A DNA stretch of 64,000 nucleotides from Nereocystis luetkeana (taxonomy: Eukaryota > Sar > Phaeophyceae > Laminariales > Laminariaceae): NCBI GenBank assembly GCA_031213475.1, contig JARUPZ010000012.1:11118727-11182726 (forward strand), given 5' to 3'. Below, one piece after another: positions 256-49,079 of this stretch (positions are counted from its first letter, which is position 1; each line of letters begins with the position of its first letter). Both the position numbers and the translations under genes were made by a program. A model generated the notes under the pieces. That model was not told the DNA's origin. It saw nothing but the letters and a program-made list of their open reading frames with translations, and did not search any database.

Positions 256-819
256 TCCGGAGGAGTGCACTCTTGGGTACCCGGGTACTAAACCTTGCTA
301 TGTTTGTCAAAACGGGGGGTACGTCCATATTATACACCGTTTCGAGCAATCCCACTACCTTGGGAAAATTCGTAACTTGTCGACCGGGGCCTAGGTACTG
401 CTGTGCTACCTGGTACCAAGGATGTGTTGGGGGGTGCACGGCGGCACCAATAGGTCTACGTAAGAATAGAGTCCCTCTTACTATCTTCGTGCAAAAGCTA
501 GGGAAACGGTTTTCGATGGGTATTGATATTAATATTATATAGTTATACAACACATAAAATAGATAACATTATTAAAAGTTCAGTAGATACATACTGCGTA
601 CCAGGCATGTACCTGGATAGGATGCTAGGGAAGTTTTATTCTTAATTTTTGGTTTCCCCTTGAACCGACCCCTTGCGCGTTTTTGCGGCCAAGGAATATG
701 TTTCTGTCTAGGAACAAGGATCACAACAGTGACCTAGTACTGTAGGGACTTGCGTGTACGTCGTGTATATTCTTGTTGTGCTGGATGTGGTGGGGTCGAA
801 AATAAAAGGTTTCGAGGCA

Positions 820-1060
820 ACTGTGAACAACAGCAGCACCAGCTACAGGACCAGCACCAACAACAACATCGACACCAACAGCACCGAAAAACACCAACAC
901 CAATACCAACAACAAAATCACGAACACCAACATCAACAACAAAATCACCACCATTACCACCAACAACAAAATCACCACCCCCACCACCACCACCAACAAC
1001 AAGAAAATCACCAACACCTACAACACTACGAAGAAGAACACCTCCACCATCACCAACGAA
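820..1060 (+). repeat. CAA/CAC-type triplet repeat
   Basis: Degenerate caacaccaa and caccaccac units. The His/Gln/Asn frame over it is compositional. Confidence 0.85.
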
Positions 1061-1940
1061 ATCACCGTTCACCTTTTGTCTCTTGAGCTCTTGCTGGATC
1101 AAGCTCTCCACAGGCGCCTTCCTCTTCCTCTCCTCCTCCTCCTCATCATCGACTGTAGCCCCACCAGCGCACGAGCATCAACCAACCATTGATGGGACGT
1201 GGGACACAGCAGCAGCATCAGCAGCAGGAAAAGATGGTTGATATACGGACCCTTTGGGCACAGCTTCGACGAGATGGTTGATATACGTACGACACGATAC
1301 AAAATATGAACTACCTGGTATTGATATTGCCTATTAATAATATATTCCCAATACACACTTGACACAGTCCGTACTCGTGGTTGAAGCTACGGCAGCAGCA
1401 GTACTCTACAGTTGTACGTGCAACCCATGAAAAATATTTCTTCATTTCTAAATACATGGACCCACACCACCGCCTGAATTCTGCAGCCTCAGCTTCAGTT
1501 CCGCTCGATAAAAGGGATGCCACATTGGGCGGGAAAATAAGGAGCGTTTATACATCAACATAATGACCAATCGTTTCTTAAATTTTCGGACAGAGTAGTA
1601 TATCTATCCTACATGAGGCCATACCAAACCCGTCGTGCGCACGACCCAAGTGTCACCGACGAAATCCTCGATCTCACGGCTAGTGTTAATTCTTTTGTTA
1701 ATGAGCCTAGGCACTTGAGCCTGGACATTTCCCCGAGTAAGGACGTAGCGAGGCGTTCCTATCACGGGGTGGCATAGTATTAATAATACACAGATATCAG
1801 AACCCACAAAAAATATGAGAACCATGCATGCTCTCAAGTTTACACAGCTACATTTGGTTCTGATTACTAAGTTCAACCACTTCATTGAAGTTAGAGCAAG
1901 TCGTAAACACTACTATTATAATACAAGGGACCGTAATGAA

Positions 1941-2056
1941 TACCTGGTAGGACCTACGGTACACACACAAACCTATGTATTTCCATATTTTTTATTTTTA
2001 CCAACTATATCAGGTCCTACCTGGTATTTACTATGGTGGCCCCCCGTAATAATACG
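1941..2056 (+). repeat. Family A element, decayed, with two TACCTGGTA additions (A0)
   Basis: The left end is eroded; the core and right end (to cccccgtaata) match family A. Relative to other copies, aaTAggacc has become aaTA-CCTGG-TAggacc at 1941, and tccTAtttac has become tccTA-CCTGG-TAtttac at 2018: two exact 7 bp additions. Confidence 0.7.
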
Positions 2057-2276
2057 AGGCAGAATTTGGGCTAAAAAACCGCGGTACTTTGTTCTGGGGT
2101 TTTCTGTGGGTGGGGAGGCCTGAGTTCATCATGGAATTTTCTCGGAATTATCTCAGCTGGAACGTGAAAAGTTGTACCTTGGGACGCAGTACAAGCGCTT
2201 ACCACTTATTCGAACGTACCAGGTATGGTTGAGGGTCACTCACTGTCAACAATACACGAACATGATCGCATTAAAA

Positions 2277-2293
2277 GCCTAACCCTAACCCTT
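2277..2293 (-). repeat. Short interstitial telomere-like repeat
   Basis: Two and a bit CCCTAA units fused to B1. Confidence 0.55.
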
Positions 2294-2378
2294 TGGGGAC
2301 CACAGTCCCGTTTTGGGGACAAAGTACTTGGAATTTGAGTGGTTTGTCCCCAAAACCGGGACTGCGGTTCTAAAGGGG
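2287..2378 (+). repeat. Family B palindromic element (B1)
   Basis: About 95 bp. Ends TTAACCCTTTTAG...CTAAAAGGGTTAA; arms contain GCAGTCCCGTTTTGGGGACA and its complement, with a short AT-rich loop (ACTTGGAATTTGAGT). No coding capacity. Here it is joined to a short telomere-like stretch on the left. Confidence 0.8.
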
Positions 2379-2790
2379 ACAAGCCACTCAGATCAGACCC
2401 AAGCAACCGTTGGTTGAAAAGAGTCCCCTTTTGTCTCGTACACGGTCTGTCCCAACCATCCGATCGAACCAGGGAAGGCTGAATGCGTGAATGCATTCTA
2501 CTGAGGCGAAGAGGTATATATACCCCCAACCATTGTCAGGGCTGGAAGTTGGCTGACAGTACGTTGCCGACTACAGCAGCAACTAATAAAAGTAATTGGC
2601 TACCAGGTAGGTAATTTCTGATAATTACGCGCGCGAACTACTACCTGGTATACTCATACCGGAGATATGCGTCGTTGTATCTGGTTGGCTCGGATAGTGA
2701 GTTTCTTTGTCAGCAAAAGTTGCCTGGTATCAAGTGACTTATTGAAGAGTTAGTTGATATACTTCGCCGCACCCAACTAGCGACAACAAC

Positions 2791-2900
2791 TATTACGGGG
2801 GACCATAGTCAATAGGACCTGTGGTATACACAAAAACCTACATGTTTAACCATTTCTAGTAACAAATATTTGGTCCTATTAACTATGGTCCCCCGTAATA
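2791..2900 (+). repeat. Family A palindromic element (A1)
   Basis: About 108 bp with long imperfect terminal inverted repeats starting TTACGGGGGACCATAGT and ending in the complement, flanked by TA on each side. The core contains AAAACCTA and the complementary-looking CAATATTTGGTCC. No coding capacity; a MITE-like element. Near full length. Confidence 0.85.
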
Positions 2901-3273
2901 GTCTTGAAATCCAGCAATCTCACAGCCTAACTACGAAGGAACATACCGGCATGTAGCACAGCAATGGTCCCTCCATCATATGGTGCCGGTATGATATGCG
3001 CCAGCCAACAACACTGGCACTATTATAGCGGCAACAGGCACTATTGGCACTACTCTGTTCACTGCCAAACCGGATACCCGTAATTCCATCTGCGCCAAGC
3101 TCATATAGCGGGCAGACGGCACTACTACCCAACCGGAGTATAGAAGGACCAATACTGCTGTCAACATGCTGCAGGGGGTTACATGCTTTTGGGGTCCATC
3201 GTGGTTCTGATTGTTACTACCTGGTAGTTAATATTGATATACTTCGTATATACTTATAGTTTGTATATATTAC

Positions 3274-3380
3274 TAATACGGGGGACCATAGTAAATAGGA
3301 CCATATATTGTTGGTAAAAATTGATAAATATATAGGGTTCATGTGTACCATAGGTCCTATTTACTATGGTCCCCGGTAAT
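3274..3380 (-). repeat. Family A element (A2)
   Basis: Full-length copy in reverse orientation of the core. A TACCAGGTA abuts its right end. Confidence 0.82.
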
Positions 3381-3596
3381 ACCAGGTACCAGTATACGTT
3401 ACTAGTATTTGTTACTATGCCCTCCTGTAATTGCTGCACAAGTTATTTTCGTCTACAGTATTAATATTGATAGTACAATAACGTCCCTCAACCAGTGTCG
3501 AATAAACTGTATAACCACGTAATCACGCAATTGAGACATAATCACGTGCTTCCCCCGATACAGTAACGAAGTATTAAAAAACTTACCAGGTATTGG

Positions 3597-3692
3597 TTAA
3601 CCCTTTTAGAACCGCAGTCCCGTTTTGGGGACAAACCAGTCAAATTTAGAGTAGTTGTCCCCAAATCGGGACTGCGGTTCTATAGGGGTTAA
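3597..3692 (+). repeat. Family B element (B2)
   Basis: Full-length copy with TTAA at both ends. Confidence 0.84.
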
Positions 3693-3712
3693 GGTATTAG
3701 AGCGCGCACTAC

Positions 3713-3828
3713 TATTACGGGGGACCATAGTAATTAGGACCAAATATTGTTACTAAAAATAGGTAAATATACCTGGTATAGCTTTTTGTGCGTACAGTAG
3801 GTCCTATTTACTATGGTCCCCTGTAATA
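3713..3828 (-). repeat. Family A element with a TACCTGGTA addition (A3)
   Basis: Full-length copy. Consensus aaataTAtagg reads aaataTA-CCTGG-TAtagc here (3770-3778), a 7 bp addition at a TA. Confidence 0.82.
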
Positions 3829-3985
3829 ACTGTAGTACGTATCAACCATTGCGTCGAACCCAAGTCAGAGGGTAAACACTGCTAGAGAGGGGCGGGCATG
3901 ACCACATGCCACATGCCACATGCGATTGTTAAGAATGTTCCACCACCCCACACGGACCAAACATGTTCGAACAAAAACATTCCAC

Positions 3986-4476: not shown

Positions 4477-4558
4477 AAGAGGAGTGCAACGATAGGGGGG
4501 TTTATACCTGGTATATTATACCACTACCTAAACATAATGTGACCCTTTTCACCTACTA

Positions 4559-5003: not shown

Positions 5004-5038
<35 letters not shown>

Positions 5039-5987: not shown

Positions 5988-6096
5988 TATTACGGGGGAC
6001 CATAGTTAATAGGACCAAATATTGTGAGTAAAAATGGTTTAATATATAGGTTTTTATGTGTACCATAGGTCCTATTAACTATGGTCCCCCGTAATA
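5988..6096 (-). repeat. Family A element (A6)
   Basis: Near-consensus full-length copy flanked by TA. Confidence 0.85.
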
Positions 6097-6965: not shown

Positions 6966-7410
6966 ACCATGTAGCGTGACGCGGTGCATCCATCATTTTT
7001 TTTTTTTAATCCCCACATGGACAATGACATCTTTCTTCGTCAGATAGTACCCGCGACGGAGTTCTCCTATTTGTGTATCTGACTCGCTAGCCACCGCGGA
7101 GTCTTGCGCTCGGCCCATCTGACTGGCACGTTAATAATAGTGGCTCGGATTGTGCCTACGTTTGTCACCATAAACTAAAACATTCGAAAACAAAAAGTTA
7201 TTGTCAGGGGGCTTACGTCCTCCACGCCCAGCTAAAAACTACCAGGTAGGCGCGAAGCCCAGCCGACTCACAGGCCTAGCTAGCGACAGCGGCAAAACCG
7301 CTAGACCACAGAAAGAGAGAGAGTCGCCTTGTATTCCTTCGTAGAATTACATGGTATACCGGTATCAATACTGATATATACAAGACAGCAGCAAGTACTC
7401 CGTGTGACAC

Positions 7411-7745: not shown

Positions 7746-9349
7746 ACGCTATTATAATAGTGTCAACCAACCCCTTGCGGCTTCAGAGTGAAAAGGCGTC
7801 GAAAATGAAGGCGATGACGATTGACCGTCTCGGCAAGGAGATGCTCCTTCGACTACAGCAGCTACAGTATCAAATTCGGCGCAAATCGAAAAGCGGTGGG
7901 GAGTGGGAATGCTGAACCCTAGCCCTGCGCGATATCGTAAAATACATCATGAGTCATGTGTGACATGTAACACGTACATTATACCAGGTATGGACATACC
8001 TGGTACTGTATATACTGTACTTGCATACATACGTGACGGCGGGAAGACGGGACAATACCTGTGACTGACCACGGCTAAATATCATACGTACTGGCTTCAA
8101 GACCTTTCCTATCGCAGAGCTTGTTTCCCATCATTTTCAATATTTTTTTCGCGCAAGTTTTCAATCGTCCAGATTTTCCTTTTTTTTCCAAATATGTGAA
8201 ATTTAACTTTCCTGATATTTTGGCTGCCCAAGAATTTTACAAATTATGACAGAACGCCTCATGCAATTCTGTTTTTTATTCCAAACTTTGGAAATTCGAG
8301 GGGGGAAAAGTCTCCGACAAGAAAAGGCCCTTTGTGAGTCCAGAAAGCCGTCTGGTCGTCGTGGACAACAAAACCTCGTATGTACCATGTATGTATGTGT
8401 GTATATATGTATGTATGAATATTTTAGTTGGGAAAAAATGACCCCGAGTTATTTTCTTCGCCCGCTTCCTCCTTCTCCCTCCCTCCCTCCCTCCCTCGTG
8501 CTACTCGTACTACTCAGATCCAGTGCTGCAGTTGCGCCTTACATTTTATCACGAGGAGAGTGCAGCGCTTGTTTCCTTCGTCGAATAGCGTCTAATTGTG
8601 CTACAGGTATAAATATGTACCTGGTATGTGCGAGTTCAGCTGGAAAATCCGTAAAAGCGATGATTGAACAAAAAAACATGAAAAATTGAAGGGAAAGTAA
8701 TCCAGCAGCTTGTCAGTTTTTTTCTTGTCGCGGAATACATTTTACTAGCGCCAAAGAGCCCTCGTGCCTTTTCGCTAATACCGCACTGCCTCTAAATTAT
8801 TAACCGGGTATTAATACGAAGTTCCTTCAGTTCAGTGAGCTTACGTATGATATACAAGGTACTCGTACAGCTGGGTACTCGAAGAGGATACGCGAGAAAC
8901 ACGGGCCCGTTAAGATATGAAAAGTTACCTGCTTACAACACTTCCTTACGAGAGGGCACGATAATGTCTCAATGTCTCAACATCTATCAGTAGGTAAAAT
9001 GCGCACCATAACATGAATTATTACGTCGAAATCTTCGATCTCCCGGCTGATCGTTTTTTTTAATAATTTTACACATCATCCATCCACTTACCATGTATAC
9101 AAATAATAATAATAATACGTACTGGTACATGAGGTACTGGTACCCGGCACGTTTGCATTTCACTTTCTATTAATAGTCCGCCCTCATTATGGTCAGTGTT
9201 GGGATGTCGCGACTATTAAATAATATTCGCTCGTACTATCTTTTTGTTTGCCCTGTCTCACACGCCTGCGACCACAGCAGTATTTGCAGGAGAATTGTAG
9301 GCACCTTTCATAGCAGTATCAACATAATAAAGACTCAGCACGGGCACTA
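7746..9349. other. No gene seen
   Basis: AT-rich DNA with a 147-codon frame (8246-8689) that crosses a CCCT repeat and a TATG repeat and looks compositional. Only dispersed TACCWGGTA and TATTAATA words and a family H block (9024-9070) are recognisable. Confidence 0.6.
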
Positions 9350-9454: not shown

Positions 9455-10760
9455 CATAGCTGGGTGGAAATAGCTCTAATAACGGTTTCATGTCCAAAGT
9501 GAAGGCAGGGCAGCACACACAGCAGACACACTGCTGTACGCCTGCCTGCCCTCTGGCGACAACAGCAACGCCAACACCACTATTGATACAAGCAGCAGTA
9601 GACTACTGCTATACCCCTACTGCTATACCCGGTACCTCGTACACGACAAACACACGGCGGCACACAGCACTGCTGTACTTCTACGCATAATATCCTCCCA
9701 AAAAACCCGAGCACATTCCAGAGTTGAAGCAAAAGGAACACAGAGCGTACAGACGAAACACAACACAAAATATGGAGACACGGGGGGACTGAAATGTACC
9801 AGGTATCACGTCATTCGCCGATCACCTGAGACTACTCGCCGCGAGACAAAACGACAACATGCCAGTAACACGTTGTTATGGACGTCAGAGCCGACCTTCT
9901 CCGGAACTACAACTGCTGTAGTAAGATAATAGGGGAGGCACACACGATGAAGACCATGGCCTTCGAAAGACCTCGTCGGGATATTTCCATCAATGATATC
10001 ACACCAAGTATCGTATGTACGTTATTGTCGTATTTTATCTATTAATAGAGGAGTAGAAGCATCAGCCGACCAAGGGCACTCTCCTCGTTGTGGACGAAAG
10101 CAGCTTTGAAATTCGTGCGAGGAGGTGTGTTATCTTGCGTGTCTGATACCGTTGTATTATACGTACGGTAGACCATCGATTATTATCTATCCAGATCCAC
10201 ATATCCAATAGCATTCGGAGATGGAGCTTTGCTTGTGCACTACCGGTATGTTGTACGTGTGAAACTGATACGAGTACAGCTATTATAGCTGTAGCATTAC
10301 ATCATACACGACACACATTATACGTTTGTGATATGGTTTCGATTATTTACGGGCAGGCTTACACCGCTGCCTATGTTCTGTTTTCTGTACTGATTACCTG
10401 ATCATTGATTACGAGTGTGGGGATTCAAGGGCTGCACTCCTGTAGTGCGTACATATCATATTACTGTTACTTGAAACTACGGTCAACTTCAGGTGCATGT
10501 ACGCACAGCGGTGAAGGACTATAACGATTAAAACGTCTCGGATGCATTATATCCCGATTGTTTGGCGAAGCTTACACGGTATTCCCAGGTGTATTACAAA
10601 TTACAAGCACACCAGTGCAACACCCCAGACAACACAACAACCCCAGGCACGAATTTCGGAGCCGATTATATTTCTCCGGAACATGCCTTGAGGCACACGC
10701 AGCGAAAAAAGTTGGCTTTGGCAAAAGGCCGATCTAATAAAGTCACAGACGCGTCGGTCG
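9455..10760. other. No gene seen
   Basis: Mixed intergenic DNA with a family C fragment. The frame at 10562-10837 partly overlaps a family C repeat and is not counted as a gene. Confidence 0.55.
10100..10160 (+). repeat. Family C fragment (C2)
   Basis: Contains tttgaaattcgtgcgaggag and gtgtgttatc; the hairpin end is eroded. Confidence 0.5.
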
Positions 10761-14137: not shown

Positions 14138-15590
14138 ACTCATGTCGAGATCGAAGGTCTAACGTCGCACGAGCTGATGTTTTGTCGTGTGTTGACAATT
14201 TACAAAAAGAAAAAAACAAACACCGGCGCGTGCAGCCGCGTGAAAAAAAAAATGGGAAAAAAACGATTTTTAGTTCCGTTTCTTCCCACAGCGGCGGTAC
14301 GAGAATATCTTCAGCAGTTTGTTGAAATGAATAGTTTCGAAACTAGACTTCGAAACGTCGTGTTTGCGTCATAGCATCAATCTAAGATTTTGTTTCGGTT
14401 GTTACCGAAAACATCGTCTTCCAAACTGAAAAAATAAAACGCGAAATTTCGTTTTTTCCCCGAAATAGCAAGTTTCGTTAAGAACGACCCTGAGAGGGGA
14501 AGAGTGTCCAAAATAAACTAAGATCACGGCAACACCGGCGTCACGAGGAAGCAGTCTATGGTAGGCTGCTCATCATAGGCTGCTGGGGTGAGCGATGTGT
14601 CCGAAGTGTAGTGGAAGGAGATGCACGTCACGCGTGCTGCATGATGATTGGTGATGGATGAAATCAATACTAATAATATAGTAGCACGGTTTCTGGGACA
14701 GCAGTTCTAAAAGGGTTCATAGGCGATTGATATATAACCCGAGACACCAACAATAATCGTTCGACGTTTTTTTTTGGGTTGACAGAAGGGATGGCAGACA
14801 GGATATACCCAGCCTACGCAACATACTTCGTATATAGTAGGCGGAACCTACTATGCTACACTACTGTTAAGGTTGTTGTTGCTGTCGTTCTAGTTGCTTT
14901 TTTCTGGATATGTTTGTGTTTTGTTGTTTTTGTCTCTTGACATATCTGCTTCATCCCCCTTGGGGAGCGCGACACAGCGATACCACCACCCATCGCTGTC
15001 GACAAAGTAACACGGAGGCGTTTTCCCCCTCATCTTCTAGTGGGTTTCTCTCGCGACGCATCGAATCTTGTCTCTTTCACGCAGGAACTTCAGTAGCCCG
15101 TTTTCCCAGTTGTTATTTTCATCCCTTATTCCGTAGGGATACGAGGTACTGGTATAAGCTCAACCCTGGCGAAGGCTGAGCGCCAAGTCGCGACCGTTGC
15201 ACCCAGAGGGCCTCTCTGGAGACGCCCTGCCGGGGACATGTTTTTACGCGATTTGGCTTCACTAGAGCTAAAACATATACCAGGTATACATATCAGGTAC
15301 CAGGGTATATATACCATATGTAAGTTGATTTTGGGCCGTACCTCAAAGGCACTACAGCTGTTTGGGCCAGGGGTGGTAGATTGACTCGGGAAAAGGCCGA
15401 ACATGCGAACAGAGTGTATGGTGATGTAGGCAGGCGTTTACGGAAAGCTGCTGTACACGCAGCAGTCCTTTACCCCTGCGGCCTACGTCGATTGTGCGAG
15501 TACCAGGAAGATATGTACTTCGTCAGACTTCGTACAAAATAAGTCTAAAGAAAGGTAAAACAGAAGGATGGTCCAGCCAACATTGACGTG
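14138..15590. other. No gene seen
   Basis: Contains the family B remnant at 14.69 kb; otherwise nothing recognised. Confidence 0.5.
14684..14715 (+). repeat. Family B remnant (B10)
   Basis: Only gggacagcagttctaaaagg and a few flanking bases remain. Confidence 0.5.
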
Positions 15591-16199: not shown

Positions 16200-16972
16200 A
16201 TACTGGCACAGCAGTACCGAGCCCTACTATCAGCAATGGCATTTGGTATGTGGTGCCGTACATGCCAGGCATGTGCCAGCACTCATGTACCAGGTAAATG
16301 GTACCCAGGTCCAGCAGTATCTGGTATTTTCGTGTTTTGATATTTGGCATCGCAAACACAAATAACGCCGTATTTGGACCAGACCAAGCCGTGATCTGCC
16401 ATCTGTCACGAACGTTCGTACATCGATTACCGTTATACCGTTTCGGTTTACGAAAGGAGACAGAATCACAGAATGTACTATTAATATTAATATTACACTA
16501 TTACCAGGTACCAGGTATTAATGTTATTAGGAAGTACGTACACGTACAGCTGTACCGCGCACAAGCTACAAAATACGGGACAAAAACATACCGGTGGGTA
16601 AACCGTAAACAGCATCAGTCACCATACACCGTCATACCTGGCACCTGGTACACCCTATCCATCTGTGACACCCACCACACGTACGTACTGCACCACTACA
16701 ACAGCAGCAGTGCCGTACGTATACAAGAAATATTAATAGTACGGTATCATGGAGGTGTACTTATGTACTTACGGCCCGCTACGATACTCTGTACGAGTAC
16801 GTATACAGGATAAGTAGTAGACGTGAGGGTATCAGTACAAGCATACGCAACGCGTTCGGAGACCGGAGATGGGGCTTTACTACATATCAAAACGCAAATG
16901 AGCAGTACCCGAATCCTATATCTACTGCAGCACTGCCTACGAAAAGTAGCGATACGTACGTACCTGGTACTG

Positions 16973-17178: not shown

Positions 17179-18727
17179 AAGTTACGAGATCTGCCGTCCT
17201 AACATCCGCGTATAGTATACCTGATAGTGTATACAGCAGTATACAGCAGTACCTGTACTCGTTTATGATACCAGGTACCAGGTATACGTCTAGGTACGTG
17301 TTAGACGTCTACGTACGTTAGACGTCTACGTACGTGTTAGACGTACTTAAACTAATGTGCAGTATTACGCGGTGTGCTTGTCCTTATCCTACGCTGCGCT
17401 CGTTGGGTGTTGGATGTTGCGTTGCTATCCCAGTCCTGAGAGATGATGATGTCCTGACTCTGTACACTATCAACAGAATGACGACATCATCCTCAAGTCT
17501 CCCTCAAGTCTAAACCTAGCAGCCGGTAATGTTTCGTGTGCCGGTGCTGTAAATTCGTCAATTTTTCGACAATTTCCGCGTGTGCTGCTCTGTACGAAAA
17601 GTCCCTGGGTGAAAGATAAAATATTGCACGAAGGAAATCTGGGGTTTGTGGAGCGATACGCAAGTCTTCCTGCTGTTTTATAGGTACCAGGTACCTGGTA
17701 TAGTATAGGGCGGAGAGGGGTTCCTCTGCACGCAGGTCCCAGTGATACTTTGTTCGATTTCGCATACCAGGTATATTGTTACTATAGCCAGTACTACGTG
17801 CAATCTGTGAGTACGAGTACATTCAGTGGGAGCCACACACGACGAGTCGTAAAGCCATACATTGCTGTGTGTGGTGTGGCAGTAAAATCTATCCTACTAC
17901 GAACCGAACTAGAACAATGTTTACAGGCTGACCCACCCTTCTGGCTTCGTGCAAATCCACCCCATCAATAATCCACGGAATCAAAGACGCCATTCTTGGC
18001 ACGGATACAATACGGGGTTTGTCAGCGGGGCGGGGGGCGGGTCGGGGCTGCCGTCGCCGCGTCTGCCTGACAAGGAGTGTGGCGTGTGGTGGCCTATCTG
18101 AACTCCGAGTATGACACTTGACAGGAGAGTAGGACAGCTTGCTAATATTTCGGTTTTCATCACAGAGGGTGTGCTTATTTTTCAGATTGTACGTGTCCTT
18201 GTACGTACCTGCCTTGTTTGTATTCAGTACCGGAACTGGCAAGGAGATTAAAGGCTGAAGCAGGCCCTTGCTCCCGAGCGGAACACAGCAAAATTGAGGC
18301 GAGCTAGTTCGTCAAGTGGCATATCGAATTGAAAAGCCATTGGTGACGGAAAACCTGGGGAGCCAGAGTTAATACACCCAATGAAGATGATATGTTACAC
18401 AAAGCAAAGTCAGTCGTGTTTTGACTTGAACTATTAGTGAGAAGGGGAGGTGATCACTAAAAAAAGAAGGAATGATACCTCGAACTAGAGTTGAAGAGCA
18501 GGGGATTTGGGGATCCGAATAATTTCCATGTCAGCAAATCACTGGGAATTGAATAAACATGTAGGAGGCGTGGCTGTGTAGGGCATAGAAGATACTTATT
18601 CATTGGATGGAGCGAGCATGGGTAGGGTTGTATTCATGAAGAAAACAAGGAGCCGATGGGAGTTGCAGAAAAAAAAAAATTCCAGCAGAGCACAGAAAGC
18701 TGGTTTGGTAATTGATACCGGTACGTA

Positions 18728-18950: not shown

Positions 18951-19848
18951 CAAGCAAATAATACACATGATAACTGAAGCACATCTACACCCCAGACGAA
19001 AATAAAAAGTGAGGTCCGCGCACGTACGCACCAGGTACATGGGGTACGCTGTACAAGTCGCCACAGAAACCGAGAAGACCGCATACGGCATACCAGGTAC
19101 TACCCAGAAGAAATACTCGTACGACAGGATGAAAAAAACAACTTCGACGTCGAAAATCGAAATCGAAATCGAAAAAATCAAAAACCAAAAAGGGTACGAA
19201 AGAGAGAAAAAGTTCAGGTCAAGCGAGAAAGCAAGAAAGAAAGAAAGGGAAAACACACAAGAGAATGCGCAGATTTTCGAGAATGCAGACTCGCACGCTA
19301 CGCGAGGGGTGTAGTTCAAGATAGGAGCCATGTGTATTTGGTACTAATGATTGCACTGCTGCCCGATTACAACGCCATTGAGGGAGGAAGGCAGTCATGG
19401 GGGATGGGGGACTTGGTAAAAGCTTTGTTTCCCTTGCCCCCACTGGTATACCTCGTACCTGGTATCCTGGGTTATATACAGTTGATAATAAAGCGCTTCA
19501 CGTACGAGTGACGAGTACAAACATTGACGCTAAAATTGTAGATTGCAGAGGCCTGGTGGACACAGCAGACGCTGCGTTTTGCGACAAGTATCCGTCCGTG
19601 TACTCGCACACACGCAGAAGTACCCAACAGCAGCCGGTTGCGAGAGGTAAAGAGCCTCGTGCAGTGGGCAGATTTCAAACTACTGCTGTACGAGTACAAA
19701 CAAGTACACGTATCAGCTGGTATTAATTATTAATAGTGGGGATGGTCTTTCGTTTACGTCAAGCAGCCAGAAAAAGCCACACGAGTAGCAGCAGAGATGT
19801 GCACGGAAGCATCACAAAATACACTCATTGATCCAGGGTATGCCATAC

Positions 19849-21067: not shown

Positions 21068-21217
21068 TGGGTGAGTTGATCGTCTGACGAATACCTGGTA
21101 TCTGGGTGTCTGTCTGTCTTCTTTGTTGTGTATGTTGTGCTTTTGTTTATTAATAGGCGTGGCGTCGAGTGAGTGCCGTATCGCTACTGTGCGTCGAGAG
21201 CCCTGGCTCCAAGCTCG

Positions 21218-25559: not shown

Positions 25560-25599
<40 letters not shown>

Positions 25600-26240: not shown

Positions 26241-26269
26241 CTCCGTATTAGATACCAGGTATTAGATAT

Positions 26270-28872: not shown

Positions 28873-29795
28873 TGATATATATTCCATCACTTTTTACTTT
28901 TCCAGCTTGAGTCGTAAAAGGTTTATACTCGTACAGGTACCCTCATTGCCCTCCTGGACAAGTCGTTGTCACAGGAACATTACTTTCTCCTCCTTACGCA
29001 CGTATTATGAACGATAGTACTGATACACCAGATATATGCCTTTTTTATGTAGCGCATACTGGGCCACTGCTCGTCCATTTTCATCGAATTTCGCCAACTA
29101 TTAATAGCGTTGTTTTCCCACTTTTGGGCGACGGGCGGAAGATCTCTCAGAAAAAGCCATGGGCTATGGGCTAAATACACCAGCCGAGATTCGGACCGCG
29201 GCGCTACCGCTTGCAGGGTGGGGTGATACCTGGTACCTGGTAGATGATACAAGGTATTAATAGTGTTCAATATCGAACGAGAATCGAGTCCGATTTGATA
29301 CGGATGAACAAAATCAAAGCTGTGTACGTGGTACGTATGTAGTCGATGCGACTTCGATAATTGATTTATCGAAGCTCTCGTTCATCGTCTTACCAAAAAA
29401 AGCTCGGTGATGCACAGAGATGGGGAGGGCAAAACACGTTCGGTTCGATCTATCGAAAGCTCGATATGTCGATTCGATACATCGAAATCTTAAATACGAT
29501 ATCCTACCCTAGGAAAAAACACATCAGCCGAAATTCGGGCCTCAGTGCTACCGCCTGCAGGGTGCATGATAGTCCCTCCCGGCCAGATTGTTAATGTCAA
29601 CAGAGAAATTGAACGAGGCAAGCAAATGGAGATGCCAAGGATATGCCAAACGTACCGGATACGACCAGCAGAACCCAACAAAACCAAACCCAAACGAGAT
29701 ATCGTACGTGAGAGAAAACCCAGCATTTGTTTTATTTTATTTCCACACGAGACATCCATCCCACCCAGCAGTGTCCGTGCTCACTCTTCATCCGT

Positions 29796-30590: not shown

Positions 30591-30633
30591 TACCAGGTAC
30601 CTGGTACTGTAGATGGCAATGTTGATGAAGTAC

Positions 30634-31126
30634 TATTACGGGGGACCATAGTTAATAGGACCTAGGGTATATACATAAAAACCTACCAGGTACGTCGTTT
30701 TTTTTTTTTTTTTTTTTTTTTTTTTCTCATCCCATTCATTATCTTCGCACATCTTCTTCTCTCTCTCCTTCCAACTCGTAACTCAGATCCGGAGTCACAT
30801 AGCAGGCTCTTCTCCCCCCTTCCCGCTACGGTACGTGCCTTCATTTTTATCGCGAGAAGATTTCAGCCTTTTCTTCCCTCGTCGACTCGCATCGAATTGT
30901 GCCTACCCACGCTGCAAGGCGCTCTCAACAATTGAATCCTTTTTTATTTTTGCAAATATAGTCAAAGTCCGACCCACCTGGGGCTCGAACCCAGGACTCA
31001 AACAAGTAGAATTCGAGGTTAACCACTTGAACCACCGGGGCGACCCGCTACGTCGTATATATACATGACCATTTTTACTATTAATAAATAATAATATTTG
31101 GTCCTATTAACTGTGGTCCCTCGTAG
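30634..31126 (+). repeat. Family A element split by a SINE (A9)
   Basis: The left part (30634-30698) and right part (31049-31126) form one family A element interrupted by SINE S4. The 8 bp tacgtcgt is present on both sides of the SINE. The copy also contains a TACCAGGTA (30684) and a TATTAATA (31079) that other copies lack. Confidence 0.8.
30699..31048 (-). mobile_element. SINE S4, full length, inside a family A element
   Basis: Complete head, linker, body and tail, flanked by tacgtcgt (30691-30698 and 31049-31056). It interrupts A9, so S4 is younger than that element. Confidence 0.86.
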
Positions 31127-31149
31127 CATTAATAGTATGTACCTGGTAC

Positions 31150-31585: not shown

Positions 31586-32750
31586 AGATGTACTATTATA
31601 AAAGGGTTGAGGCGAAGTGTACCGACGATGGATGGGATGGAATAATGCATGATGAGGGTAATGATGATGTTCTGAACCTTCACCCTGGTAACAACGCGGG
31701 CTAAACAAAAAAAAGCGTCTCGATGGAAAACCCCCCCAAAAAAAGTGTGTGAAGTAATACGCCGCAGCAGCAGTTGTTTACCAGTAAAAGCAAGGGAACG
31801 TTAGAAGTTGGAATTAAGGCGCAGAGCCGAATCAGGCAATGGAGTGGGACGTAATGGGATGGGAAAGTAATGCATGCGATGGGGTGTGGGATCCCCATCC
31901 CCTCGGCGGTCTTTATTCCCGAGTCAGTGGCTTATTGTGTACCCGGTGTAAAATACAGAACGGTGTATAAGGAGACGAGTCATGGTGACTTGACATACTG
32001 ACATGCCCCGGTTCGGGTGGGCCTCTTCGCTCTCCGCCCAGCGGGAACGCGACAAAAATAAAAAATAAATGGTGGAATTATCCCGTCGTCCCACGAGTGT
32101 AGGTAGATGTATCATGCGTACGTACCCGCAAGCCGAAGCCCTCAAGAGGCAAGAAAGAGTGTTCGCACAGATTACTTTCAGAAAGCAGAATGATACCAGG
32201 TACCAGGTATGCATATTATGTGGTACACGCTAGTGTCAAAGTTGTACCTGTTACAGCATACCGGAAAAGGCACTGGTCGTACCAGTTGAACCCTGCCGTG
32301 AAACTATTGCAGGCTTGCTATTCTGCGTTGAAGTTGAGAAATCAAGAACTTGGGGGAATGTGGAATGGACCATGATAACCGGGTATTCCGCCTCTTGGCC
32401 TGGCTGTCAACGCCGCGTATCCGCACCTCTAAATCGTACCAGGTACTCGATATCACGGTTAGACTACGTAGCTTGCGGGCTTGTGGTCTTCCAGGTATTG
32501 ATTATTGATAGTCCGCGGCTCCCCTGGGATGCCAGCGCCACGTATCCGCCCTCCGCCGACACGTTGTATCGTATCGCATCCTATCATGTCATGCTATGTA
32601 CAGCTGCAGCCTGCAGCAACAAGCAGCTGTATTGCCAGTGGGAGTTTTTGAGAACCAGATGTTTTTTTTCACTTTTTGTTACGTTTTTTCGCTCACGATT
32701 ATTGTACTTATTTTGCCTTCTCCATCTTCAGTCCGACTCGTATATCGGCT

Positions 32751-32960: not shown

Positions 32961-33023
32961 AATGATGAAGCCAAGGCAGCGACATGTACGTACGGTCCCC
33001 ACTTAGTAGCGTCGTTTTATTGT

Positions 33024-33148
33024 TATTACGGGAGGCAATAGGAAATAAAACCTACCAGGGTATGGTACACACAAAAACCTACCAGGTACGTATTTACCTA
33101 TTTTTAACTGACAATAGTTGGTCATATTTACTAAGGTCCCCCGTCATA
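33024..33148 (+). repeat. Family A element with two CCAGG additions (A10)
   Basis: Longer than standard because the core has TA-CCAGGG-TA (33053) and TA-CCAGG-TA (33080) additions. Confidence 0.75.
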
Positions 33149-33475
33149 GGGAGATGATGCAACAACTGCAGTAGAGTGAGTGCTGCTGAGCATGGTCGTG
33201 TACTCTGTTCCAGCAGCAGTGTCTGGCATGATACTCATGACACTACGTATCCAGTGCCAGCTATCGGCAAAGATGTTGTCGAATTGAATATCGTACAGAT
33301 GCCAGGTAGCATCCCCATCAATAGAGTGCGTTCGGAACTACCAGGTACAGGAGTAGAAAATCCTTACCAGGTACCTGGTACATACCAACGCCCCTTATCA
33401 GAGTTGTACCGGCCCGTGACAGTTCGTAGTGGGCAGAAATTGGAGCCCCCTCAGACCTGGTATACCGTTTTCCCC

Positions 33476-33570
33476 TAACCCTTTTAGTACTGCAGTCCCG
33501 TTTAGGGGACAAACCAGTCAAATTCTAAGTAGTTTGTCCCCAAAACGAGACTGCAGTCTTAAAAGGGTTG
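33476..33570 (+). repeat. Family B element (B16)
   Basis: Full-length copy. Confidence 0.82.
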
Positions 33571-34498
33571 AAGGGAGTCCCATATCTACTGCTGTTTTAC
33601 CTGGTACCAGGTGTACTGTGTAGATACATCCGTGGCGTGTGATATTGATAAAAGGTCTATGAATAATACCATTTGATTGTGTCGGCGTCCAACAGCAGGC
33701 GCCACGATGTCCGATGTCTCGGCGATTGCAGGGGACTGCAACTGTTGACTGCCACCCTGGAGCGCGGCTGACGCGACCGCCTATGGTACCCGCGGTATGA
33801 TGGTGCTCGTACAGCTCAGCAGTGCGGTTTGGTTTATACATGCATGATCGATCGCATGCTACAGCAGAGCGGGATCTCATTCATTCGTCCATCGACAGTG
33901 TGACGTGTGTGATCGCTGATGCGCCTGCATTCCGCGCCAGTGTACCTCTGATCAAACCTTGGCATGTACCTGAAACTAGGGAATACCTCGTATGTTCAAC
34001 AGTAACCGAACCTGACCGTCCTTGTGGCTTGTCATGACCACCTGCCTCTTGAGTTCCGACTGGGTGTACACATCGTACATGATATCATACCACCATATCA
34101 TCGCACGAAGTATCGTAAGTACCTGGCATCATACATCATACATCAGATTTAAATATACAATGAATGTATAAATCTGTTCTTGCAGAGGAGGATTGGAATT
34201 TGTTCCGTTGTCCTTCACGTTGCCCCACTTTTTTTACGTTCTGATTCTGTGATCGTGCGACTCTTTTCCCATTTTGGCACATGCTTTCTGTTTTCTGATT
34301 TTTCAAGTGGTGTTTCGTAGTTGGTGAGATGACTTGTCAACCTACTGCTGTCTGTAGCAATTGTGCCACTGCTGCTGCTGCTGCAGCTGCTGCCACGTAC
34401 TCGCATAAAGTTGCTGCGTAGGACTACATATTTCCCTGGTCCTTGTATGGTGTACGATATGTACGTTGCGTGTCTGTGTGTTAAGTCCGTTGTTCTAG

Positions 34499-35068: not shown

Positions 35069-35276
35069 CTGATTTTTTTCAGTAGATATTGTTACTATTG
35101 ATATTATTACCAGGGGTTTTTGGAGTAATCAGAGTCCACGATGGAAACAAGAAACATGTACCTGGTATCCCCTTATGTTTGCTCATCATATTTGGTTCTA
35201 CTATAAGTACCACTACTGCTGCTGTATGTACCGCTTGCACGACCCGCTCACACCCTACAGAACAGGTATATATTGT

Positions 35277-35568: not shown

Positions 35569-35867
35569 CCGTAGAGAGACAAGCTCTGTGGCCGCACAAG
35601 CACGACACAAGAGATCATCTATGAAGGATAGCTACACGATTGTTACCTGGTACGCAGTAAGCAAACGCAGACGGTGCAATGCCATGTCATAGGTACAAGA
35701 CGGACGCCTGATAACGCCACCCTTGTTGGTAAGTTGTTTAGTCGCTGTCGTACACCAGGTACAGCACAGCAGTATTAATAGGACCGATATCATAGCCTAT
35801 CTGGGTGGAAATGTAAGAACCGCTTGATGTTGTTATCTCCGAAACGCTTCTTACATTGCCGTCCAGA

Positions 35868-36212
35868 GCCGGTCGCCCCGGTGGTTCGAGTGGTTAACCT
35901 CGAACTCTACTTGTTTGAGTCCTGGGTTCGAGCCCCAGGCGGGTCGGACTTTGACTTTATTTGCAAAAAAAAAAAAAAAAAAAAAACGATTCAATTGTTG
36001 AAAGCGCCTTGCAGCGTGGGTAGGCACAATTCGATGCGAGTCGACGAGGGAAGAAAAGGCTGAAATCTTCTCGCGATAAAAATGAAGGCACGTGCCGTAG
36101 CGGGAAGAGGGGAGACGAGCCTGCTATGTGACCCGGGATCTGAGTTACGAGTTGGAAGGAGAGAGAAGAAGAAGATGAGCGGAGATAATAAATGGGATGA
36201 GCAAAAAAAAAA
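35868..36212 (+). mobile_element. SINE S6, full length
   Basis: Plus-strand copy with head (gccggtcgccccggtggttc), B box GGGTTCGAGCCCC, A linker, body and a 10-base A tail. The anticodon arm is longer than in a normal tRNA, so the parent tRNA cannot be named. Confidence 0.85.
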
Positions 36213-36836: not shown

Positions 36837-37420
36837 TTAGCGTTAACGTAACCGTTTCAGAATTTCACCCGCATTTGTTTTGGACAGCGTACTTGGGTTT
36901 AGTGTGGGGCTGTTTTTTACCAGTTGTAGTAGGGTTGAGAGATATTTTATTTTCGCTGCATTTAGTGCAAAATGTATGACTCATACCAGGTACCACTCTG
37001 TTCCATAGTATACGCACCGTTTTAAGACTAATTTTGGCACTACGCGGTGATCGTATTTCGGAACAGAGGTACAAGTGGTAGGAGACCTCTCGTTTTGAGC
37101 ACCGGCGAGGCCTATTTTGGCGTTCTTATAGTATTGGTTAGGGCTACATTTGAAGACATGTATGTATGTATGTACCAGGTATGTATGTGTGAGACCGCGG
37201 GGTGGGAGGCGAGGGGGGTACACGTGTGATGGCACCCGCTACATGTGACCTGTGCCTCTGCCTTCCCCCCATCGCTGGTGCTCTACAGCAGCAGATTTCT
37301 TGGTTTGTTTTTCGTTCCTCACTCGTTTTTTCCGCCCGTTTCTTTCGCTGTTTTTTGGTGGTTTTCGCCGTGTACTTTACTTCGTGCCGCCTATGTATAT
37401 ATTTATATATGGCACTGCAG

Positions 37421-37492: not shown

Positions 37493-38154
37493 GTACGTCG
37501 AGTCTTGCCGGCTTTACAGGCTACCTACAGGCATATTATGCCGCAGTTTTTATTGAGTGGTTCTTGTTTTGGTCGTGCGTAAGTTTGGTTGTTGTTTTGT
37601 TCGCTGTTTTATCGCTGTTGTTCTTGGTGTTTTTCGTTGTTTTTTTATGTTGCTGTTGATTGGTTTGGCATAGTTACGGTTGTACTTCCGTGCACGCTAT
37701 CCTCCTGTGAATAGTATCATTGTTGTACAACTATTAATAGTTGCTGCCGCTGTGCTCATTTTTTGCTTTTATTATTGACAAACAATCGGGCCGTAGTCAC
37801 GGGGAAAAAGTTGTAGTCAGGGTTGTCAGTACTGCACAGCAGACTGGTGCATATACAAACCTGCTGTCTTTTTTGTTATTCCTGTTCCCAGACGGTGGCT
37901 ACTATCAATAATAGCATGATTCTTCTTTTTTTTACGTACGTACTCGTCCCCCCCCCCCCCCCCCCCTTTTTACCGTTTTCTCCACACCCATTTTATGTTT
38001 CGCCGTTTATTTACCGGTACTATCAATACTATGTTATCCCCATGTGACCGGTGCTTTTTTTACGGAACCTCCTTTTTATTTCAACCTTTCTCGTTTTTTT
38101 TTTCTTCATTTTTTTCGTTTGGTCTGGGCTCTCGTTCCTCGCCCCTTCCCGCAG

Positions 38155-38247
38155 GTGGACATGTACTCGTACGGCGTGGTGCTTTGGGAGCTGTGCTCGC
38201 TCCAGAAGCCCTTCGCTGGAATGTCTCCCTACCAGCACGCTCGCAAA
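38155..38247 (+). CDS. Protein kinase gene, exon with helix F
   Basis: A 93 bp, phase 0 exon behind a long pyrimidine tract and cccgcag, ending at aaa|gtgagt. It encodes VDMYSYGVVLWELCSLQKPF and then AGMSPYQHARK. The aspartate of DMYSYG is the invariant helix F residue that holds the catalytic loop, and LWEL is typical of the tyrosine-kinase-like group. Confidence 0.92.
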
Positions 38248-38810
38248 GTGAGTGTCGGTACTGCTGACGTGCCGATCTGGTGGATACACGAAACCCTTTT
38301 TATAAAAAAGTAAAAAAAAGAAAAAAGAAAAGAGAAAGCACCTCCTCCAGCTGGTAGACCGCGAGAATTTCGTTGAAACTCAGCTTTGCACGCTTCACAC
38401 GATGCTGGACGAACATGTGGTCTATACGTATATACGCTCTACTCGTACAGTGCTGCGGTAAAAAAAAAACCGACAACCATTTTTCTGCCGGGAGGGGCGG
38501 GGTGGGGTTCGTGACTGGGCGAGAATATCTACCATCGGCGACTGAACCAAACGATTGTTGTTTTTCTGCCTAATCACTGGTAGTATCGCTGGTACCGTAC
38601 GTACAATAACACGCTGTGTTGGCTTAACTCTTGGGAAGGTTCCATACAGGCCGGGGTGATTTTTACATACCAGGTCTGCAAGAAACCCGAACGGTCGTAG
38701 TCAGAAATGTGCCTACCTGCATTGGCAAAGCAATGCTAGAGCTGTACTCCGAAGAGCCATCAAGGCCCACCGTGTCGAGGTGTTGTGGTGGTAGGAAGGG
38801 GCGGGGAGGG

Positions 38811-39824: not shown

Positions 39825-40056
39825 CGGGGGGGCCATACCTGGTAGTAAATAGGACCAAAGATTGTTATTACGGGGGACCCTAGTTAACAGGACCTATGGT
39901 GTACATCAAAACCTATATATTTAACCATTTTTTCGAACAATATTTGGTCCTGTTAACTATGGCCCCCCGTAATAGTGAAAATAGTTAAATATATATACAC
40001 CTGGTAGGTTTTTGTGCTTACTGTAGGTCCTATTTAATATGGTTCCCCGTAGTAAT
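39825..40056 (-). repeat. Family A element containing another family A element (A13)
   Basis: The outer copy is split at attgTTA/gtgaaa by A14. Removing A14 plus one TA restores the consensus attgTTAgtgaaa. It also carries an exact 7 bp TACCTGGTA addition at 39836 (ccaTA-CCTGG-TAgtaaat) and a CACCTGGTA at about 40008. Confidence 0.82.
39866..39974 (+). mobile_element. Nested family A element showing a TA target duplication (A14)
   Basis: Inserted into A13. The element proper is TTACGGGGG...CCCCCGTAA flanked by TA on both sides, while the empty site has a single TA. A TA duplication is the hallmark of Tc1/mariner-type elements, so family A is best described as a Tc1/mariner-type MITE; the transposase is not in the window. 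Confidence 0.82.
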
Positions 40057-40944
40057 AGTCAGGAGCAAATATGCTTACTATTACTAGTAGTAAAGATACT
40101 GGAGTATATAGCTTGTTATGTACACGATGAGTCCTGGTTACTTCAGGTTCCCCGTTGTTTGGTTTGTGTGCGTGTCAGACGGTGATCGTATTGTCGGGCA
40201 GAGTGGTGTTGATCTGTCGGCTGACGGCAGGCGCTCTTGATTGCCCCGCCAAAGAACTCGTTACACCATAAGTACAGTAGCACGTATATTTATGAATAGA
40301 TTTTACAGTGAAGTCTGAAGAGAGCCGGACGGGCCAATACCGACCTATAGCGCCCTGCCCTAGAAGCATGCCTGGTAAGTACCAGGTACCGTTTTGTGTG
40401 CCAGGTATCAAGTATTAACGTTTGATGTTTACTCCAAACGGTCCCTGTGTTTGGTTAGGGAGTGGTATTTGCTTGGGACAGCAGTGGCGCAGCGCCCGTG
40501 AGGGTGACGGCGCACGTTCTACGTTGCTTGTAGGCACGATAGCAGTCACCTATAGCAGTCACCTTTGTAGCCTTCGTTTTGCGCGCGGAAAGCGGCTCGA
40601 CAGTGGAAACAACAGAGCAGTTGTTGAAGCTTTTTGAGTGCAGTGCAGTGCAAAACCCTCGGAAGCTATTGTTGGTATATCACGCGGCAGGGCATGCGCG
40701 TCGGTCGAACGATTTGTTGAATCAGTGGATACCCGGCGCCACCAACACATCAGCATCAGCAGCAGCAACAACATCAGCAGCATCAGCAGCAACATCGCAC
40801 TCCCTCATCCTAACCGACGATGCCTGTTGACGGTCTACTTTTGGTCCCCGTCATGGCCTCTTTATACTAGTTATACTCGTTTTAGTGTAGGGAGTTCCAT
40901 AGTGACTGTCTGTCGATAGGGGCAAGAGTGCCTGCTGGTAGCCG

Positions 40945-46680: not shown

Positions 46681-47249
46681 AGCACACTACGAGTCCTACT
46701 GTACCATACCAGGTAGTTACATACTACTCGTAGTGTAATTTGGGAAAGGTAGGGCTAGTGCCACGGGCGGAGCCATGGCCGTACCGCTATAAATATTGTT
46801 TCCGCTATCGTTTTGGGGTACTCCTGCTGTGATGAGTTGCCAAATAGAGGACAGGCAGTACCAGTCTCGAGGCCCATATAACCTGTTAAGGATACACGTA
46901 CTTACTGCTGCTACATGTATGTATTGTATGTTGGAGCACTCCGCCTACCCGCCGATGGCTGCGTAAATGGGGGTTCTAGTTGATAGCAGCTACAGTAGTC
47001 TACCGAGCCCCGTTGGCACAGCTGCGTAGCTCAACAAGGATATATATATGAACAGTACAGCGGTAGCAGCTACGTGTAGATAGAACTGCTCGCTCGCTTG
47101 CAGGGTTGCACAGATTGCACAAATCGCGATGTACAGTTTGTTACCGAGTACGTACAGTAGATAATCTATTTTCAAGTTTGTACTGCCGCTGCCGCTGTAG
47201 ATTCACCTGTCGTTATGATATATATGTTGTTTTTGTGCAGTACCTGGTA

Positions 47250-47592
47250 TGTGATATGAGTGGAGTGCTCATGGGCTATAGATATAGATAATATAGTCTG
47301 CGGTTTCGTAGCCTAAAGGAATGCGAGAATATCCCAAAGAATGGATTAACTCGGCGGCTATTCCTCTAGTTGAGAGTAACGTTCTTTCAGGAATGTTCTT
47401 TAGGGCGGATAACCCGTTAGACGAGATTAATGTTCCCTAACGCAGATAGGACCATAAAGTGAGAAGATTTTATACTAGCAGAAGAACGATCGGTAGCCAT
47501 AGGAAAGTTATTTAGGAGTACACTAGATACGAGGAATTTAGGAGAGCTTGTGGCGCGGGGTGGGACGAGTATTATATCTGAGCGTCGAGTCC
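47250..47592 (+). repeat. Direct repeat, left copy (possible LTR)
   Basis: About 340 bp starting tgtgatatgagtggagt, with ctatagatatagataatata, gttctttcaggaatgttctt and ggtgggacgagt blocks, some 90 per cent alike to 47930-48276. Its left edge abuts a TACCTGGTA. An aataaa lies at 47651 beyond the shared part. Confidence 0.75.
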
Positions 47593-47705
47593 CACCCCCC
47601 TACCTCTCACTTCTCTACCAGAGCACCTACCTCCTCAGCTCTAGTCATCAATAAATAAGATCTATATCAGAAGAAGCGACGCACTGCTTCCCAGCTGCCA
47701 GATAC

Positions 47706-47738
47706 ACCTGCGTCCCTTACCCTTACCCTTACCCTTAC
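47706..47738 (+). repeat. (CCCTTA)n stretch
   Basis: About four units; not the TTAGGG telomere unit but one base order different. Confidence 0.75.
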
Positions 47739-47929
47739 CTCGGCCTTATCTTCACATCTGACGTCGTAGTGTTTGGGTCTTATTACACGGTGTGGGGAAA
47801 GCTATAGCCTCATTTAGTTTCGAATAGCCGCAACTTCGACCACCTTTTCCTGGTCTTTTGGGATGAACTTTGTCATCATCCTTCAGCCATCTTGTGGTTT
47901 GCATATACGACTAATTCAGGGTGGGCTAA

Positions 47930-48276
47930 TGTGATATGAGTGGAGTACTCTCATGGGCTATAGATATAGATAATATAGTCTGCGGCTTCGTAGCCTAAAG
48001 GAATACGAGAATATCCTTAAGAATATATTAACTCGACGGCTATATTCCTTTAGTTGAGAGTAACGTTCTTTCAGGAATGTTCTTTAGGACGGATATCCCG
48101 TTAGACGGGAGTAATGTGTTCCTTAATGCAGGTAGGACCATAAAGTGAGAAGTTCTTACGTATACTAGCAGAAGAACGATCGGTAGCCATAGGAAAGTTA
48201 TTTAGGAGTACACTAGATAAGAGGAATTCAGGAGAGCTTGTGGCGCGGGGTGGGACGAGTATATCTGAGCGTCGAG
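47930..48276 (+). repeat. Direct repeat, right copy (possible LTR)
   Basis: Same 5' edge (tgtgatatgagtggagt), preceded by a purine-rich cagggtgggctaa. The 340 bp between the copies contain no coding sequence, so if these are LTRs the element is a TRIM-sized, non-autonomous one. No target duplication was found. Confidence 0.7.
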
Positions 48277-48339
48277 TACCCAAGTATAATACGTGTACTC
48301 GTACGTGTAATACCCACCTGTATACCTGGATGGTGTGGA

Positions 48340-48425
48340 GGAGCTATTATTAATAGTAAGCATGGCACGCTACCTGACATGGAGCTATTATTAATAGTAA
48401 GCATGGCACGCTACCTGACATGGAG
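48340..48425 (+). repeat. Two 41 bp tandem copies containing TATTAATA
   Basis: ggagctattattaatagtaa followed by gcatggcacgctacctgaca, exactly repeated. Confidence 0.85.
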
Positions 48426-49079
48426 CTACAACATGTTACAGGTACTAACACAACGTCCTGTTGTTGCTGCAGGAGGGCAGTATGAAGGTGCATGGGTATT
48501 ATTATAGGTAGGTGTGTTCTTCCTACCACTGACTGAGAGAGCTATCCAGCAGCGGGTAAAATATCGATTTCCCCCCCAGCGCATCCCTGTGCCCCTCTGC
48601 TATATATTTCCTTCAAAATAACAGCTAATCGTTTCTGAGCAAGAGCGCCCAAGGGTACAAGGGTACGGTCTACTTCAAGGCAAAGAGGAGATATGTCGCC
48701 AGTCCCCACCACCGCGTATCCCTTCCTTCCTGTGTCTCGGCGGCTCCAGCGAGACCAAGATCGATCGTTGTTTGATTTTCGACGTATCTTTCTTTGTTGA
48801 TTGCGGTGGTACACTCTTCAGCTTCAGATTTTTTTTGTCTTCCTCATCGTATACGGACTGTAACAACTGAACTTGCGTTAGGCCGTTTAAAACCCGTTCA
48901 TAGTACACGCGATCGAAGTATAAAAATAGTGAATATCACATACGAGAGTACAGCTTGCAAGGATGAGTTTCGCGAAATCCTCGATCTCATACGTAGCCGT
49001 TGTTTATATTACCAGGTATACCTGGTACCAGTTATTAATTTTACGTACGAGTATAAATATGACTTTCGGGGAATATTCG

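Follow-up and report, generated by a model that had tools for sequence, protein, structure and literature searches.

CCWGG units added at TA dinucleotides in the genome of Nereocystis luetkeana as probable excision footprints of a Tc1/mariner-like transposon

In a 64,000-nucleotide stretch of the Nereocystis luetkeana genome (assembly GCA_031213475.1, contig JARUPZ010000012.1, positions 11,118,727 to 11,182,726 of the forward strand; hereafter the window), the nine-base word TACCWGGTA recurs at TA dinucleotides, and in several aligned repeats sister copies lack the added unit. We propose, at a probability of roughly 0.8, that each such word is the excision footprint of a Tc1/mariner-like cut-and-paste element that had inserted at TA and left with a five-nucleotide (5-nt) stagger. 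The presence of CCWGG at TA is confirmed, while its interpretation as Tc1/mariner-like scars is well supported yet unproven, because no CCWGG-ended element was found in the sequence read. An earlier, sequence-only reading of the window had suggested either a TA-targeting transposon of this kind that leaves CCWGG on excision or a minute product of some unfamiliar end-joining or integration process; the excision scars it envisaged gain support from the addition at TA, the symmetric target preference, an internal control and tandem pairs that a target preference can explain.

The window holds 58 exact copies of TACCWGGTA, 32 as TACCAGGTA and 26 as TACCTGGTA; CCAGG and CCTGG being reverse complements, these represent a single word in two orientations. 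They include every place named by the sequence-only reading, which had set the 58 against about 0.5 expected; order-2 and order-3 Markov models give a chance expectation of 0.79–0.89, and a filter for distinct flanks leaves 50 of the 58. In the whole source assembly of 1,987 contigs and 465 Mb, TACCWGGTA occurs at 182,395 places against 1,744 for a reversed-word control, and its doubled form at 15,917 against 2. A chance origin is rejected by these window and genome counts. Twenty 10-kb stretches from twenty contigs, one of them with 2,500 masked bases, carry 77 words, which matches the 0.39 per kb averaged over the genome; in the window the density reaches 0.91 per kb, some 2.3-fold higher. 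Among 5-nt quasi-palindromes lying between two TAs in the window, CCWGG (58) and GGWCC (10), the latter belonging to a repeat, family A, described below, exceed all others by far, the cores next in rank having 4 each. The final word in the window begins at 49,019, and positions 52,001–64,000 contain none, against about 8.8 expected by TA count (588 of the 3,872 TA dinucleotides in the window). That same interval, somewhat low in TA, holds one CTATTAATA/TATTAATAG word only, despite five family A copies. The doubled word was also found in nine viral contigs, at one place each; searches of viral contigs with family A, with a second family (B) and with the protein of a long interspersed element (LINE) had no match.

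That the word is an addition follows from repeats in which filled and empty copies can be aligned. Family A is a miniature inverted-repeat transposable element (MITE), about 110 bp long, whose TTACGGGGG ends lie inside TA, its better copies having TA on both sides; short, TA-flanked and bounded by terminal inverted repeats (TIRs), it has the features of Stowaway-like or Tc1/mariner MITEs, and its best-scoring copy, used below as an internal control, lies at 5988–6096 (plus strand, as are all footprint coordinates that follow). Alignment of 23 copies and fragments to their consensus revealed 15 insertions of at least 5 bp, eight of which carry CCWGG at TA: four are plain 7-bp additions, one is 8 bp long, one is split by the aligner into 2+5 bp, and two lie in longer or junction insertions. 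The four sites that had been singled out as exact additions from the sequence alone (1941–1949 and 2018–2026 in the copy at 1910–2055, 3770–3778 in the copy at 3709–3833, and 39836–39844 in a fragment at 39825–39865) are exactly 7 bp longer than the family A consensus. Further footprints lie at the terminal TA of the copy at 3274–3381 (3380–3388), in a partial copy at 30629–30709 (30684–30692) and in the copy at 33019–33152 (33080–33088), which also bears an 8-bp addition of the 6-nt variant TACCAGGGTA at 33053–33062. The CCWGG insertions occupy five or six different positions in the family, one of them common to three copies and perhaps inherited; in filled copies the unit is flanked by TA at either end, and the majority of sister copies have a single TA at the equivalent place.

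Outside family A, two pairs of repeat copies, each 90% identical, differ by exactly 7 bp (locus L046 against L024) and by a 14-bp double unit (L011 against L033). Paralog evidence was found at 13 sites in all; alignments at L017 and L020, also outside family A, were dropped as unclear, and no clean empty copy was found for L017 at 9111, L021 at 8094 or window position 26095. As with Tc1/mariner elements, the insertion is at TA and the TA is duplicated.

The sites that received the unit share a two-fold symmetric outer preference, with W (A or T) at ±7 and A at −6. The 35 single sites that lie outside family A offer 70 flanks. W occupies −7 in 61 of these, against a mean of 37.6 and a maximum of 53 when TA sites were drawn at random 5,000 times, and A occupies −6 in 35, the same draws giving 18.6 on average and 32 at most; 27 of the 35 sites have W on both sides, at −7 and +7. 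The pattern is repeated in 73 single sites of other loci (W 0.79, A 0.51, R at −1 0.85), a set that may include family A copies and in which four loci had been chosen via the doubled word, their pairs being left out; it was not seen in other TA-N4/5/6-TA words. A symmetric flank preference that reaches ±7 around a duplicated TA is the mark expected of integration by a transposase complex, and its palindromic form is that of Tc1/mariner targets. W at −7 stands at 0.73 in words one change away from TACCWGGTA and at 0.51, the background value, in words two changes away; since the former keep part of the preference and the latter sit at background, many one-off words look like decayed scars.

Between TAs, the window contains, beside its CCWGG words, 2 CCSGG and 6 CCGG, with no CCATGG, CCTAGG or CCAAGG; 159 CCWGG were counted in 345 kb of sequence, and the core is mostly 5 bp long, rarely 6 or 7. 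Among one-base-longer forms in 276 kb, CCAGGG occurs 12 times against 0.85 expected, and each of seven others occurs 0 or 1 time; the 6-nt form is TACCAGGGTA. A genome search with WANNNNR-TACCAGGG-V returned 1,387 places, and among the 100 of these that were listed (90 distinct strings), 27 strings read TACCAGGGG, with 9 of the 27 then reaching TA, as against 6 of 43 where the next base is A and 1 of 20 where it is C. The reversed control for this search (13,874 and 13,843) was unusable, as the end of family A is part of the reversed word. As CCAGGG is the sole enriched longer form and the TACCAGGGG strings continue to TA most often, we infer that the end of the parent element would read 5'-CCAGGG.

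These observations suggest how the scars may arise. The element would enter a TA within the palindromic context WANNNNR-TA-YNNNNTW, duplicating the TA, and staggered cuts on its exit would keep about 5 nt of the element end on each flank. The resulting 3' overhangs, 5'-CCAGG (or CCTGG), could then pair via CC/GG around a central A:A or T:T mismatch, whose repair in either direction would yield TA-CCAGG-TA or TA-CCTGG-TA. The 5-nt overhangs are suggested by the core itself, as CCWGG corresponds to the C-W-G of Sleeping Beauty, with its 3-nt overhang, plus one complementary pair on each side. A different cut seems to us unlikely: an element bounded by CC...GG, such as CCA...TGG, would leave 3 nt of one end and 2 of the other in the scar, with no mismatch pairing. 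Pairing-free repair may occur, since the presumed scar of family A keeps 2 nt per end (TT+AA), and the 2+2 product CCGG exceeds expectation, with 6 copies in the window against 1.2; the 345 kb hold 21 such sites. Unequal retention, however, predicts a spread of products, whereas the 5-nt and 4-nt forms stand at 58 to 6, the 3+3 products CCATGG and CCTAGG are absent from the window, and CCAGGG alone is enriched among the one-base-longer forms (12 against 0–1 for each of seven others).

The excision-footprint reading with a 5-nt stagger also offers an account of the tandem pairs. All seven pairs spaced 7 bp apart that the sequence-only reading had reported are present, at 16502–16517 (16502/16509, with a common TA), 17269–17284 (17269/17276), 17685–17700 (17685/17692), 29227–29242 (29227/29234), 30591–30606 (30591/30598), 32194–32209 (32194/32201) and 33365–33380 (33365/33372), the third, fifth and seventh being in opposite orientations. 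The special explanation that had been sought for mixed CCAGG/CCTGG pairs falls away, since with one word in two orientations "mixed" means merely opposite; in 345 kb, the pair orientations are AA 6, AT 4, TT 3 and TA 2 (four loci had been picked for containing a pair). Strand slippage as the whole explanation is rejected by the dispersed sites and the mixed orientations. A scar spaces two TAs exactly 7 bp apart, in keeping with the preference for T at −7 and for A at −6; each scar would thereby offer a preferred half-site, and later copies could land adjacent to it and produce tandem pairs. When 58 events were simulated on the first 49.1 kb with its scars removed, learnt target weights gave a mean of 7.9 pairs against the 7 observed, with 42 of 60 runs reaching 7, whereas uniform choice among TAs gave a mean of 1.0 pair and reached 7 in 0 of 60 runs.

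Family A itself provides a comparison within the same sequence. Of 33 family A ends located by similarity, 18 have T at −3, 17 have A at −2 and 20 have C at −1, a landing context of the form TAC-TA-GTA. The second strongest dispersed word is (C)TATTAATA; TATTAATA occurs 30 times in the window against 0.56 expected (an example lies at 37732–37739, no strand assigned), and it carries T in 27, A in 37 and C in 31 of its 60 window flanks, with frequencies of 0.62, 0.58 and 0.51 among 110 flanks in other loci. We read TA-TTAA-TA as a putative excision footprint of family A in which 2 nt of each end (TT, AA) are kept. Since the family A ends and TA-TTAA-TA share the TAC flank, a resident TA transposon seems to leave TA-X-TA scars in its own target context. 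A further word, TACGAGTA/TACTCGTA, was observed at 17 places in the window and about 50 in 345 kb (47 against 10.4 in 276 kb), and it is perhaps the scar of another TA element; TACGAGTA, TACWGTA and TACGTA are all enriched with a skewed −1 base, and none of them showed an addition in a repeat.

Several results weigh against the Tc1/mariner interpretation of the CCWGG scars. The most direct concern the parent: a TIR scan of the window found no convincing pair of inverted CCWGG ends whose inner sequences match (among the 60 of 224 inverted-repeat matches listed are family A, family B and other repeats), and the same scan of other loci gave just 7 weak pairs (at least 8/13). In 345 kb, TACCWGG stands as a one-sided end 142 times; for four of these ends BLAST gave a match that starts nearby, one of the four being the 8-bp scar at 33053, and none was judged a repeat boundary. 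The 100 listed places of the WANNNNR-TACCAGGG-V search contained just two marginal pairs with common downstream sequence and differing flanks; recurring strings among them also share their upstream flank and look like ordinary repeats. Profile searches returned 0 matches for PF13358 (DDE_3), whose control gave a signal in 3 of 14, and 0 for PF01359 (mariner Transposase_1), but there the control gave a signal nowhere; PF03184 (DDE_1, pogo-like) had 28 matches, and the 20 loci read showed no CCWGG ends, with other ends such as CAGTACCGGCC where ends were found. The search for a transposon with CC(A/T)GG next to TA gave nothing convincing across the window, 345 kb and the 100 of 1,387 places, which suggests that the parent is rare, gone or has ends that differ from those inferred. 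Other difficulties concern the scars themselves. In both clean pairs outside family A (L011 at 1501, L046 at 2465), the empty copy has TG instead of TA; we read this TG as a putative decayed TA, because in words one change away from TACCWGGTA the replacement of TA by TG or CA is prominent. The −1 preference is weaker than the outer one, with T avoided in 66 of 70 flanks (mean 56.6), a value reached by 11 of 5,000 draws, and the core is not fully strict, given the 15 CCSGG and 21 CCGG beside the CCWGG words of the 345 kb. The 5-bp core also falls outside the 2–4 bp given for Tc1/mariner footprints in the excerpted text of PMC7913693. As to the family A control, the repeats yielded no clean addition of TTAATA; two low-identity family A copies have insertions that contain it. 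The pair simulation, finally, took its weights from the same window and yields 20 pairs with 95 events, above the observed number, so that it speaks for consistency and is no proof.

In the pogo-like (DDE_1) loci L044, L047 and L050, the inverted repeats that lie inside TA are of the CAGTACCGGCC / CCGGCC type. One DDE_1 match with three TAG stops recurs at equal score on contig C2 and four small contigs (L051, L052, L053 and two more), perhaps as alternative haplotypes or recent copies.

Two explanations that dispense with a transposon fare worse than unequal retention. An end-joining or integration process of a new kind, adding one CCWGGTA unit at TA-centred breaks, would suit the great uniformity of the unit and the fact that neither a parent nor a CCWGG repeat boundary was found in the sequence read. 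We nonetheless consider it quite improbable: five fixed bases are not expected of a non-templated process, a symmetric preference out to ±7 on either side of a duplicated TA would be the product of a transposase complex, and the second word, TA-TTAA-TA, carries the flanks of a resident transposon family. A dispersed binding motif conserved by selection, for which the palindromic word and its symmetric outer contacts might speak, is rejected by empty sister copies, which lack the unit at five or six family A places and in two other repeats, as well as by tandem arrays in both orientations.

If the CCWGG words are indeed transposon footprints, they have counterparts in known systems. Minos leaves the footprint TA-CGAG-TA, of the same form but with a different core from CCWGG; TACGAGTA is also enriched in the genome studied here. 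In Sleeping Beauty, the overhangs pair with a mismatch during footprint formation. Excerpts of the published accounts describe cleavage by Sleeping Beauty three nucleotides inside the element, with 3-nt 3' overhangs and a footprint that equals the overhang (PMC7827188), and consensus footprints TACAGTA/TACTGTA, a 5-bp addition (PMC4378557). As in those footprints (PMC4378557, in the part available), CCWGG scars have TA on both sides, a quasi-palindromic core and a central W. They differ in a core of 5 nt rather than 3, one base pair longer per side, in their 182,395 words and in having no resident element in the sequence read; with CCWGG in place of the C-W-G core of TACWGTA, the footprint is a different one that would arise in a similar way. 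Stowaway MITE footprints in Triticeae, according to the available portion of PMC1925063, are short TIR remnants between two TAs, with insertion beside an existing footprint as well; those remnants are 1–4 bp long, variable and from one gene site, whereas CCWGG is one word genome-wide. ZB and other Tc1-like elements show a palindromic context around TA, as the CCWGG scars do, but ZB prefers ATATATAT (PMC7913693, in part), while the scars are strongest at ±6, ±7 and −1. The sequence-only statement that no described system leaves this signature at such density therefore needs division: the form has a precedent in Sleeping Beauty TACAGTA/TACTGTA (PMC4378557, as excerpted), and for the density none was found among the matches listed from the open-access literature searched. 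The scars appear unusually many and unusually uniform, and their scale is the surprise.

The remaining footprints of the window are mostly single words, at 407–415 (TACCTGGTA), 1312–1320, 2217–2225, 2601–2609, 2642–2650, 3218–3226, 3584–3592, 4505–4513, 7240–7248, 8618–8626, 9797–9805, 15278–15286 (followed by the 6-nt variant TACCAGGGTA at 15298), 16288–16296, 16961–16969, 17765–17773, 19091–19099, 19456–19464, 21092–21100, 23065–23073, 26095–26103, 26253–26261, 31140–31148, 32437–32445, 33339–33347, 35159–35167, 35644–35652, 36984–36992, 37173–37181, 40380–40388, 46707–46715 and 47241–47249; those at 26253 and 32437 have TA at both −7 and +7. Two footprints lie 15 bp apart at 7982–8005 (7982, 7997), and two adjoin at 49010–49027 (49010, 49019). 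At 22686–22709, a footprint is followed by a one-off copy, TACTTGGTA, and then by the 6-nt TACCAGGGTA, which we read as a possible decayed triple; the footprint at 33598–33606 has a one-off neighbour, TACCAGGTG.

Other repeats and coding remnants share the window. Family B, a MITE with TTAACCCTTTTAG-like ends that we take from those ends to be piggyBac-like, occurs at 2280–2388, 3587–3697, 25203–25313, 33466–33575, 56179–56293 and elsewhere. A repeat of about 345 bp resembling a short interspersed element (SINE), with a poly-T end, lies at 24371–24718, 25581–25928, 30709–31048 and 35868–36212; its GGCTCGAACCC stretch resembles a tRNA-type B box. Pieces of a protein-kinase domain (PF07714) at 23396–23806 and 37915–38310, about 14 kb apart on one strand, perhaps belong to one gene with very long introns. 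Three of ten reading frames had a Pfam match, Rfam and tRNA scans of the window returned 0, and a protein search with a LINE fragment gave 652 relatives.

At the scale of the genome, one may speculate, more tentatively than for the individual scars, that N. luetkeana has or had a transposon that targets TA, is excised with a 5-nt stagger and hardly ever stays where it has inserted. Its departure might be programmed or occur throughout the germline, and some 180,000 scars would then persist in a genome with few or no resident copies, the scars themselves acting as preferred landing sites and building 7-bp phased arrays of TA. If the footprint reading is true, the 7-bp scars would record where a transposon now rare or lost once sat, with a scar every 2.5 kb or so across 465 Mb, and would suggest a transposase that cuts with a longer stagger than any in the literature cited here. 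A 9-bp word with a 5-bp core, long enough for counting in an assembly, would make numbers of insertions and excisions, target choice and repair measurable from sequence alone, and the same process would constitute a large-scale source of 7-bp, frame-shifting variation.

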